Source: an uncultured Pelagibacteraceae bacterium
GTDB taxonomy: Bacteria; Pseudomonadota; Alphaproteobacteria; Pelagibacterales; Pelagibacteraceae
NCBI GenBank assembly: GCA_902562875.1
Contig: CACEVB010000003.1
Coordinates: forward strand, 1-64,000
Reading direction: 5' to 3'
Length of the DNA stretch: 64,000 bases
Position numbers and translations under genes: made by a program. Shown piece after piece: positions 53,952 through 57,799 of this stretch. Each line of letters opens with the position of its first letter. The first letter of the stretch is position 1. The notes under the pieces are model-generated. The model did not search any database. It saw only the letters and a list, made by a program, of their open reading frames with translations, and was not told the origin of the DNA.

Positions 53952-54953
53952 TTATATCCAGCTAGGTACAGGAAGACCTTTTTCCTGTAAAAATTTCTTA
54001 TTAAACATCTTGGAGTTGTATTTATCGGATTTGTCGCAAAGGATTGTCACGATTGTTTTGCCTGGTCCTAATAATTTTCCTAATCTAATTGCACCAGAAA
54101 TATTTACTCCACAACTTGTTCCAAGACTTAAACCTTCGTTCTCAATTAAATCAAATAAAACCGGTAAAGATTCATTATCGCTTATAGAAAAAGCACCGTC
54201 GATTTTAGCCTCCGCAAAATTTGCCGTAACTCTACTTGATCCAATTCCCTCTGTTATCGATCCTCCTTCGCTCTTTAACTCACCATTTTCAATGTAGTTA
54301 TAAAGCGAGGAACCATATGGATCTGATAAATATATTTTAATATTTTTATTTTTCTCTTTAAGATATGAGCTAACACCTGCAATTGTCCCACCTGTTCCAG
54401 AAGCACAAACAAACCCATCAACTTTTCCGTCTGTTTGTTCCCAAATTTCAGGACCTGTACTTTCATAATGTCCTTTTAGATTAGCAGTGTTATCAAATTG
54501 ATTAGCCCAAACTACTCCATGGTTATTTGAGCTTTTTAATTCGTCTGCAAGTCTTCCAGCAACCTTTACATAATTACCATCATCTTTATATGGTTTAGGA
54601 GGAACTAATTTTAATTCTGCCCCCATGTTTTTGAGCATATCTTTTTTTTCTTGTGTTTGATTATCATTCATAACAATTACAGTTTTATAACCTACCGAAT
54701 TTCCAATTAGACAAAGTCCAATTCCAGTATTGCCAGCTGTTCCCTCAACAATAGTCCCCCCTTTAGAAATTAATTTTTTCTCTTCAGCATCTTTTATTAA
54801 AGCTAGTGCCGCTCTATCTTTTACTGATCCACCTGGATTAAGATATTCAGCTTTACCGTAAATATTGCATCCAGTTACTTCGGATGCAGCTCTTAATTTA
54901 ATTAAGGGTGTATTTCCAATTCCTGAAACAAAATTATTCTGAAAATTCTTCAT
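53952..54953 (-). CDS. cysK: Cysteine synthase A-like PLP enzyme
   Basis: [69 protein letters not shown]. Start either 54953 or 54968. Confidence 0.92.
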
Positions 54954-55518
54954 TTTTTTCCTCGTCACTTATACCATAAGGTTTAAATTCTTCTGTAGCT
55001 GTTCCAACATTTCTTGCTGGGATTCCTACCATAACTCCATTTTCAGGAACATCTTTAGTCACTACTGCATTTGCTCCAATTTTTGCGTTCTTTCCAACTA
55101 CAATAGGTCCAAGTACTTGAGCTCCAGATCCAACAACAACATGGTCATGAAGAGTAGGGTGTCTTTTAGTTTCTCTTTGATTTTCAGAATTTATACTTGG
55201 CGATATTCCTCCAAGTGTTACGTTATGATAAATTGTAACATTGTCCCCGATATCCGAAGTTTCTCCAATTACAACACCCATGCCATGATCAATAAATAAA
55301 TTTTTTCCAATTTTAGCTTTTGGATGAATTTCAATTCCAGTCATAAATCTTGAAAATTGAGAGACTACTCGTGCTATCAAATCAAACTTTGCAACTGCAA
55401 AAAAATTTGCAATTTTATGCATGAATACTGCTTTTGCACCTGGATAAGTTAGTATTACAGACAGTTTTGACTTAGCAGCTGGGTCTCTTTTTATTATAGA
55501 TTCTAAAAATTCGTTCAT
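54934..55518 (-). CDS. cysE: Serine O-acetyltransferase
   Basis: Left-handed beta-helix; [43 protein letters not shown]. Confidence 0.95.
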
Positions 55519-55549
55519 AATTATCTAATAGATTTAATTAAATTTAATT

Positions 55550-55669
55550 TTAGTCGTTACAACAACAACAATCAGATTTTGATTTGCAAACACATTCATG
55601 GTTATGTTTACAAGCACATTTATCGTTAGTGCAATTCTTACATTTACATTTTTGATTATTGCAAATCAT
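55550..55669 (-). CDS. 39-aa cysteine-rich, metallothionein-like mini-protein
   Basis: MICNNQKCKCKNCTNDKCACKHNHECVCKSKSDCCCCND: 12 Cys and 2 His of 39, CxC pairs plus CCCC; uninterrupted ATG..TAA; below ORF-track cutoff. Confidence 0.72.
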   Translation of the reverse strand: MICNNQKCKCKNCTNDKCACKHNHECVCKSKSDCCCCND

Positions 55670-55716
55670 AAGAAATATATAATTATTATATTTATAAATA
55701 CAACTTATAATTTTAA

Positions 55717-56409
55717 CTAGATTTGGTCTAAAGTAAGACCCTTAACATTTGCAGGAACAGCAATATCCATCATTTTTGGATTAGATAAATTCAGATTTTG
55801 CATTATATCAGCATATTCTTCTTTAGATTTTACCTGCAATCTAGGATTATTATTTTTTTCATTTTCAATCGTTGAAAATTTATTTCCGTTATAATCGTGT
55901 GCTGGGTATACAAGAGTATTTTCAGGAAGTTTTAAAAGTTTATTAAACAGTGAATCGTAAGCATCATATGAGCTTCCATTTTGAAAATCTGTTCTACCTG
56001 TACCGTTAATTAATAATGTATCTCCTGTAAACACTCTATCATTCATCAGATAACTATAAGAACAATCAGTATGACCAGGTGTATACATTGCTTTTAGTTC
56101 AATATTTTCTATTTTAACTTTTTCGTTATCTTTTATTTTTAAATCTATTACCTCTGATTTTGAGTTCTCTCCCATTATTCTTGCACAGCTTGTCCTTTTA
56201 TTTAACTCATTTAACGCCGTTATATGGTCAGCATGAATATGTGTATCAATAACTTTGACTAATTTTAGTTTGAGATTTTCCAGAATTTTAAGATATTCTT
56301 CAGTGTGTTCAATAACTGGGTCTATAATTAAAGCTTCACGACCCTCTCCACTAGAAATAATATAAGTGTAGGTTGAAGATTTTTTATCAAATAATTGATT
56401 AAATATCAT
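55717..56409 (-). CDS. MBL-fold hydrolase, ETHE1/persulfide dioxygenase-like
   Basis: DTHIHADHITALNELNKRTSCARIMGE, MYTPGHTDCSYSYLMNDRVFTGDTLLINGTGRTDFQNGSSYDAYDSLF, VYPAHDYNG. Confidence 0.9.
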   Translation of the reverse strand: MIFNQLFDKKSSTYTYIISSGEGREALIIDPVIEHTEEYLKILENLKLKLVKVIDTHIHADHITALNELNKRTSCARIMGENSKSEVIDLKIKDNEKVKIENIELKAMYTPGHTDCSYSYLMNDRVFTGDTLLINGTGRTDFQNGSSYDAYDSLFNKLLKLPENTLVYPAHDYNGNKFSTIENEKNNNPRLQVKSKEEYADIMQNLNLSNPKMMDIAVPANVKGLTLDQI

Positions 56410-56484: not shown

Positions 56485-57147
56485 ATGACATTAAAAATTA
56501 ATAGTGTTGCACCAGATTTTACAGCACAAACCCAAATGGGGGAGATAAAGTTCCATGAATGGTTGGGAGACAGCTGGGGAGTTTTATTTTCACACCCAAA
56601 AGATTTTACACCCGTATGCACAACAGAATTAGGCGCTTTAGCAAGAATGAAACCAGATTTTGATGCAAGAAACGTAAAAGTTATGGGTTTATCAGTTGAT
56701 CCTGTATCTGATCACGAAAAATGGTTAGAAGACATAACAGATGTATGTGGGATGAAACCCGAGTACCCAATTGTTGCAGATGAAAAGTTAGAAGTAGCTA
56801 AGTTATACAATATGTTAGAAGGTGATGCTGGAACTTCTTCAATGGGAAGAACAGCCGTTGATAACGAAACTGTGAGAACAGTATATATTGTAAGACCTGA
56901 TAAAAGAATCGGTCTATTTCTTACTTATCCAATGACAACCGGAAGAAATTTTGGTGAAATTTTAAGAGCAATAGACTCTATGCAAAGAACAGCTAAACAC
57001 AAAATAGCAACCCCTGCAGATTGGAAACCAGGCGAGGATGTAATTATTGTACCTAAAGTAACAAATGAGGAAGCTAAAAAAATATATCCAGATGGCTGGG
57101 AGACAATTAAGCCGTATTTAAGAAAAGTACCTGACCCACAAAAGTAA
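56485..57147 (+). CDS. Peroxiredoxin (1-Cys/Prx6 type)
   Basis: FSHPKDFTPVCTTELGALARMKPDFDARNVKVMGLSVDPVSDHEKWLEDI, long C-terminal extension. Confidence 0.95.
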   Translation: MTLKINSVAPDFTAQTQMGEIKFHEWLGDSWGVLFSHPKDFTPVCTTELGALARMKPDFDARNVKVMGLSVDPVSDHEKWLEDITDVCGMKPEYPIVADEKLEVAKLYNMLEGDAGTSSMGRTAVDNETVRTVYIVRPDKRIGLFLTYPMTTGRNFGEILRAIDSMQRTAKHKIATPADWKPGEDVIIVPKVTNEEAKKIYPDGWETIKPYLRKVPDPQK

Positions 57148-57799
57148 GTTAGATACAAAATTATTAGACCAACAATCTCAGCATTGGGAAAAAAATTTCT
57201 CGAATAAGCCTGAGATGTTTGGTTTAGATGCAAGCGAACCAGCAAAAAAATCTTTAAAAATTTTTCAAGAAAATAATATTAATACTGTAGTTGAACTAGG
57301 AGCCGGACTTGGGAGAGATAGTATTTTTTTTTCCCTAAATAATCTTTCTGTAACTTCATTAGATTATAGCCAGTCAGGCATAAATATAATAAATAAAAAA
57401 ATTAATAATAATAAACTAAAAAATATTAGCACTAAAGTATTTGATATTAGACAAAAACTGCCATTTGAGGATAACTCAATTGATGGGTGTTTCTCTCATA
57501 TGCTATATTGTATGGCATTAAGTAATCAAGATTTGCTAAACCTTAATAAGGAAATTTGCAGAATATTAAAACCAGAGGGATTAAATATTTATACTGCTAG
57601 AAACGAGCATGATGGTGATTATAAAAATGGAATACATAGAGGTGAAAACATGTATGAAAATGAAGGATTTATAGTTCACTTTTTTAATAAAACAAAAATC
57701 AAATATTTAACTGATGGATTTAAAAATATAAAATTAGAAAATTTTGAAGAGGGAAAATTTCCAAGAAAACTTTATTTTGTTGTAAACAAAAAAATTTAA
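57131..57799 (+). CDS. Class I SAM-dependent methyltransferase; true start uncertain (CTG 57131 or ATG 57215)
   Basis: VVELGAGLGRDSIFFS motif I; open frame extends upstream of 57215 encoding LDTKLLDQQSQHWEKNFSNKPEMFG, typical methyltransferase N-terminus; no ATG/GTG/TTG in that extension. Confidence 0.8.
   Translation: MTHKSKLDTKLLDQQSQHWEKNFSNKPEMFGLDASEPAKKSLKIFQENNINTVVELGAGLGRDSIFFSLNNLSVTSLDYSQSGINIINKKINNNKLKNISTKVFDIRQKLPFEDNSIDGCFSHMLYCMALSNQDLLNLNKEICRILKPEGLNIYTARNEHDGDYKNGIHRGENMYENEGFIVHFFNKTKIKYLTDGFKNIKLENFEEGKFPRKLYFVVNKKI

Follow-up and report, generated by a model that had tools for sequence, protein, structure and literature searches.

An unannotated cysteine-rich mini-gene beside cysE in SAR11 bacteria, metallothionein-like in composition and with look-alikes in marine phages

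The mt locus and its gene neighborhood

The minus strand of the window, as we term the whole 64,000-nucleotide stretch of DNA that was analyzed, contains at 55550..55669 a complete open reading frame, mt, which translates as MICNNQKCKCKNCTNDKCACKHNHECVCKSKSDCCCCND*. Retranslation agrees exactly with the initial annotation, which had described 39 residues with 12 Cys and 2 His, and it also bears out the cysteine spacing given there from CxC-x2-C onwards, but the first cysteine, C3, had been left out, and the full pattern reads C3-x4-CxC-x2-C-x4-CxC-x5-CxC-x5-CCCC. Cysteine makes up 31% of the peptide, which has CxC motifs and the CCCC run and is devoid of Phe, Tyr and Trp.

The neighborhood of mt had been described as consisting of an ETHE1-like gene, cysE, cysK and a divergent peroxiredoxin gene, and these identities hold. 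Upstream on the same strand lies mbl (55717..56409), whose stop is separated by 47 nt from the mt start codon and which encodes an ETHE1-type persulfide dioxygenase-like MBL protein that matches the PDB entries 4ysb (E=3.3e-69) and 4chl, the human ETHE1 (E=8.8e-52). Downstream, and again on the minus strand, a gap of 31 nt (55519..55549) extends from the mt stop codon to the ATG of cysE (serine O-acetyltransferase, 54934..55518), the end of which is overlapped by cysK (cysteine synthase A, 53952..54968). The gene of the 1-Cys peroxiredoxin, prx, is located divergently on the plus strand (56485..57147). Just downstream of prx, the plus-strand region 57215-57799 encodes a methyltransferase whose match to the MduS selenoprotein methyltransferase model, although it reaches E=1.7e-63, stays below the cut-off of that model.

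Two promoter-like elements precede mt on the minus strand. Among 80 distinct orthologous upstream regions, 65 have the TTG of the −35-like element TTGTAT (55698..55703) starting at position −34 relative to the ATG. The −10-like element TATATA (55676..55681) is part of a TATAWW box that spans positions −12 to −7 and has five positions with at least 90% conservation of the base, in a window of 28% GC. This TTG/TATATW pair is found at constant distance from the mt ATG, and as the usual promoter spacing would have transcription begin directly at the ATG or beside it, the mt mRNA is probably leaderless.

Conservation and history of mt

Relatives of mt were detected in 21 of 101 genomes of the same genus by single-sequence search and in 41 of 201 by profile search, i.e. 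in about 20% of the sampled genomes of this SAR11 genus, and further genera of the Pelagibacteraceae carry the gene as well. These figures are lower bounds, because one genome that was scored negative (L233) has in its mbl-cysE gap a longer, divergent 44-aa copy, MTCNNKSCNCKNCDPKKCKCSSDGNCACNSCKCSPNSTNCCCNN, with an extra Cys-rich insert that the profile missed. A scan of GTDB genome contigs resulted in 105 mt-encoding stretches, and 80 of the 80 matches listed are Pelagibacterales by title. Altogether 133 loci were parsed, some of which represent one genome retrieved in two ways, and these contain 90 distinct coding sequences for 75 distinct proteins; in the family as a whole, the protein is 36-44 aa long. 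Two weak class-level matches (L147, L148) were rejected as relatives, as they showed no Cys-rich small ORF of the mt kind.

In this family, the 11 conserved Cys columns average 99.9% identity versus 58.9% for the other 28 columns, a figure that is fully unbiased for only five of the cysteines, because the locus-parsing pattern demanded the other six. The first 21 members, which were found without that pattern, show two Cys losses (C13Y in L018 and C36Y in L020). At all 11 conserved positions (11/11) both TGT and TGC occur, which means that the cysteines are kept by synonymous codon switching. The copies differ chiefly at the third base of codons, and the NG86 estimate of omega is about 0.26 for all codons together and 0.53 when the non-Cys codons are taken by themselves. 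The two His residues of the window peptide are not conserved across the family.

Could mt be a spurious or non-translated ORF, or the shadow of a gene on the opposite strand? Its size is below annotation cutoffs and curated libraries contain no homologue, but chance is excluded by a simulation modelled on the 64-kb window, in which none of 10,304 ORFs of 25-60 aa from 40 order-2 Markov windows had more than 7 Cys; the runner-up for Cys richness in the real window has 6. Together with the strong selection at the codon level and the fact that an antisense ORF of at least 35 aa is retained in only 6 of the 90 distinct copies, this leaves practically no room for such an explanation, which is already refuted by the conservation. 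mt is a real, selected and old gene, and the cysteines are its conserved feature.

The order of the divergent prx followed by mbl, mt, cysE and cysK in the opposite direction is retained in nearly all loci, and mt lies beside cysE in all parsed loci but one. In three loci (L048, L066, L101), mt is followed by cysE-msrB, without mbl. The association of mt with cysE is tighter than that with the dioxygenase gene. The one exception, L055, has an intact mt including the CCC tail directly before msrB; cysE is gone from this place, and the genome, which is about 80% complete, yielded no close cysE. As an aside, prx and mbl are separated by an inserted segment of about 1.3 kb in several SAR11 lineages (L072, L084, L093 and others).

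Genomes without mt have either a short, clean mbl-cysE gap of 14-37 nt or lack an mbl immediately before cysE, and no decayed ORF with stops or frameshifts, which would have counted against the initial reading, was seen in these relatives. Mapped onto a tree of cysE proteins with 109 rows, the presence and absence of mt require 2 changes in comparison to a mean of 20.5 with shuffled labels, with the mt-negative genomes all drawn from one genus, which means that the tree covers a part of the history; an outlying genus carries mt, too. From these 2 changes, mt appears to be ancient and vertically inherited, and it looks ancestral in the Pelagibacteraceae, with few losses. Within the set of SAR11 genomes that lack mt (L227-L252), many cysE genes carry a ACTATATA-like box about 10-45 nt before their ATG, possibly a conserved cysE promoter.

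Comparison with known metallothioneins

No curated family covers mt. In Pfam, none of 18 members had a match even when E values up to 10 were allowed, nothing matched in NCBIfam and PHROGs scans, and no family in the PDB matches the SAR11 proteins. In the broad sense, metallothioneins are small, have a high Cys content in CxC and CC arrangements and few aromatic residues; all this applies to the window peptide and is conserved in the family. With the SmtA/BmtA type (PF02069), SAR11 mt has in common that it is a small, Cys-dense bacterial protein with CxC motifs. Characterized members of the SmtA type fold into a GATA-type zinc finger that includes His ligands (PMC10612145, PMC7387436), whereas mt, as judged by its sequence, has neither a PF02069 match nor conserved His nor an intervening folded segment. 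None of 101 genomes of the same genus contains PF02069, whereas the model does match in the control, Synechococcus elongatus. The initial view of mt as metallothionein-like and zinc-finger-less is in agreement with this failure of the SmtA-type model. MymT, the mycobacterial copper metallothionein, resembles mt in that it is small, bacterial and rich in Cys and does not belong to the SmtA type; it is described as having a sequence motif of its own (PMC10612145).

mt is therefore an unannotated conserved family that no curated metallothionein family covers. In composition, and probably also in action, it resembles metallothioneins, but it stands outside the SmtA type. The searchable open literature contains no relevant paper on a metallothionein in SAR11, Pelagibacter, phages or cyanophages; preprints and subscription journals were outside this scope, and a prior description there is possible.

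Similar mini-proteins in marine phages

When IMG/VR was searched with the SAR11 profile, 7 phage contigs were obtained, and addition of the two distinct sequences from these to the search led to 78 loci. Two of the 78 (L211, L212) were set aside, as they encode a different 216-aa protein with the motif CDCENCQCDPCEC on a viral-labelled contig of 54% GC, probably a convergent or fused copy. With a phage profile, at least 115 marine phage stretches in IMG/VR were found to encode small proteins with the mt Cys frame. They are mostly 27-46 aa long (three have 20 aa), with the consensus M(A)CNNExCxCENCTCDPCxCTxxNxCGC, and their genes are usually preceded by a purine-rich, ribosome-binding-like stretch. 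We are not aware of a description of this phage family of small Cys-rich proteins (contigs L140-L146, L149-L210 and L213-L226) in the searchable literature.

Among the genes near the phage mini-genes are those for Hsp20, IscU (NifU_N), IscA, Nfu, a nuclease, a peptidase M15, DNA polymerase and ribonucleotide reductase. On three contigs (L176:2615-3256, L213:2376-3011, L224:276-911), a gene for a membrane protein of 211-213 aa ends 39 nt upstream of the mini-gene; this protein has a His-rich loop and the sequence HSLEADHIA, which contains an HX4DH motif, and its matches to NicO and TauE models do not reach the cut-offs of these. On several contigs, hsp20 and the DNA polymerase gene flank the mini-gene, at the position where the cultured cyanophage P-RSM4 has pstS, and the DNA polymerase of mini-gene phages is about 50% identical to cyanophage polymerases. 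Such a mini-ORF is absent from the cultured pelagiphage HTVC008M, from most of HTVC115P and from the hsp20 region of P-RSM4, and a tblastn search of cultured phages with the peptides was negative, with the reservation that the low-complexity filter of BLAST may mask peptides of this kind.

How are the phage and SAR11 proteins related? Both groups have the Cys frame C-x4-CxC-x2-C-x4-CxC-x5-CxC with identical spacing, and N5, N12, T14 and D16 are common to them. The phage proteins differ in that C15 and P17 are nearly fixed, that the CCC tail is missing and that there is no cysE context. Alignment of the two groups with hhalign gave 97.2% (E=3.5e-11). The stretch on which the relationship is based is rich in Cys and comprises 26 residues. 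A column permutation on all core positions resulted in p=5e-5, but a part of this agreement is imposed by the search patterns. As these patterns used some of the residues common to both groups, a separate permutation was made on the 7 positions outside the patterns, which resulted in p=0.003, and in p=0.03 when six later positions were included. The phage profile scores SAR11 proteins with a mean of 13.9 bits, as compared to 0.7 bits for shuffles with fixed Cys, and in the median 1 of 100 shuffles is as good. The same profile gave no match in 399 genomes of the phylum, but as at E up to 0.01 it also failed to recover the window's own copy, this negative result carries no weight. In view of these p values, common descent of SAR11 mt and the phage mini-proteins is probable, albeit short of proof.

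In the PDB, the phage profile matched a single entry, the fish metallothionein 1m0j, and this match is non-significant (E=0.47). Vertebrate-type metallothionein domains, such as 1m0j of Notothenia, have a CxC-rich grammar in common with mt, and convergent composition is enough to explain the match.

Functional considerations

We consider it likely that the mt product is a small, cytosolic, zinc-finger-less metallothionein-like metal-thiolate protein that is probably made together with the enzymes of cysteine synthesis. The thiols of its CxC, CxxC and CCC motifs would form a metal-thiolate cluster around a few soft metal ions, be they Zn(II), Cu(I) or Cd(II), and the protein would thereby serve as metal buffer or sink, perhaps also as a thiol reserve under oxidative stress. 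mt would have a promoter of its own, give rise to a leaderless mRNA and constitute the first gene of a presumably co-transcribed mt-cysE-cysK unit, with the consequence that a peptide that consumes 11-12 Cys per molecule would be produced together with the cysteine-making enzymes. Metal binding is what we infer as the best reading of sequence and context. In the SAR11 locus, no metal-sensing regulator or efflux gene adjoins mt, and the neighbors are sulfur and redox genes; the phage look-alikes, which are probable relatives and are found near Fe-S scaffold and metal-transporter-like genes, favor a role in metal handling.

What alternatives exist for such a metal-thiolate protein? The presence of a persulfide dioxygenase and a 1-Cys peroxiredoxin gene nearby, and of msrB in another genus, could point to a buffer of thiols or sulfane sulfur, in which the cysteines would carry persulfides or act as redox sink in concert with these enzymes and would not bind metals. 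This is very improbable, since the dioxygenase gene does not adjoin mt in L048, L055, L066 and L101, since metal-related genes are found beside the phage look-alikes, and since CxC-dense spacing is a hallmark of metal-thiolate proteins.

Another possibility is that mt encodes a cysteine-responsive leader peptide, in which the speed of ribosomes at the Cys codons, above all at the terminal CCC(C), would tune the expression of cysE-cysK. As far as described in PMC9031893, leaderless polycysteine short ORFs act as cysteine-responsive attenuators in mycobacteria (Canestrari et al. 2020), and like those, mt is rich in Cys, has a Cys run and lies upstream of other genes. Attenuators of this type place a Cys-rich ORF with no leader, or a short one, before the genes that they regulate, and such an arrangement is indeed what the fixed-distance promoter-like elements and the downstream cysE suggest; mt closely precedes cysE in nearly all loci, and its Cys run is at the C-terminal end, just before the stop codon, in a tail that the phage look-alikes lack. 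However, in an attenuator only the codon run would matter, and the ORF would be lost without its regulated gene. Unlike the mycobacterial ORFs, to the extent that they are portrayed in that source, mt conserves Cys positions and spacing along the whole peptide, tail and beyond, as a protein does, and it does so even where cysE is absent from the locus: the complete mt with its tail in L055 argues against a pure cysteine-sensing leader role. Relatives without mt have a cysE without any leader peptide, and the mt-cysE gap has no terminator-like or conserved structure. The hairpins that it forms are weak and AU-based, with a mean z of −0.78 against 0.04 for the control. RNA folding of the window copy reaches −1.7 kcal/mol (z = 0.05), which is no stable structure, and no Rfam match was found for the gap. 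We therefore regard the leader-peptide explanation as improbable.

The CCC tail at a metallothionein-like body could also be taken to indicate a dual function, i.e. a metal-thiolate protein whose synthesis in addition couples translation to cysE-cysK, so that the cysteine status would set both. The short gap to cysE and the weak hairpins in several lineages are in line with this idea, but the RNA structure is not common to the copies and the tail is retained in L055 without cysE, and such a coupling thus appears unlikely, if somewhat less so than a leader peptide alone.

As to the phages, it is a possibility of slightly less than even weight that the metal-thiolate protein proposed for SAR11 belongs to a zinc-finger-less metallothionein family common to SAR11 and uncultivated T4-like and other marine phages. 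In the phages, it would be an auxiliary gene for metal and Fe-S supply during infection, in line with its position near hsp20, iscU, iscA, nfu and the NicO-like gene, and the host form with its CCC tail would be wired to cysteine synthesis.

Implications for SAR11 and its phages

SAR11 bacteria are among the most abundant cell groups of the ocean and have a highly reduced genome, and the retention of a 39-aa Cys-rich gene in such a genome therefore implies a real need for it. If our reading is true, phages would carry metal-handling genes of which the searched papers give no description, SAR11 would gain a metal-buffer or thiol protein that length cutoffs have missed, and metal handling would be tied to the supply of cysteine in these bacteria.
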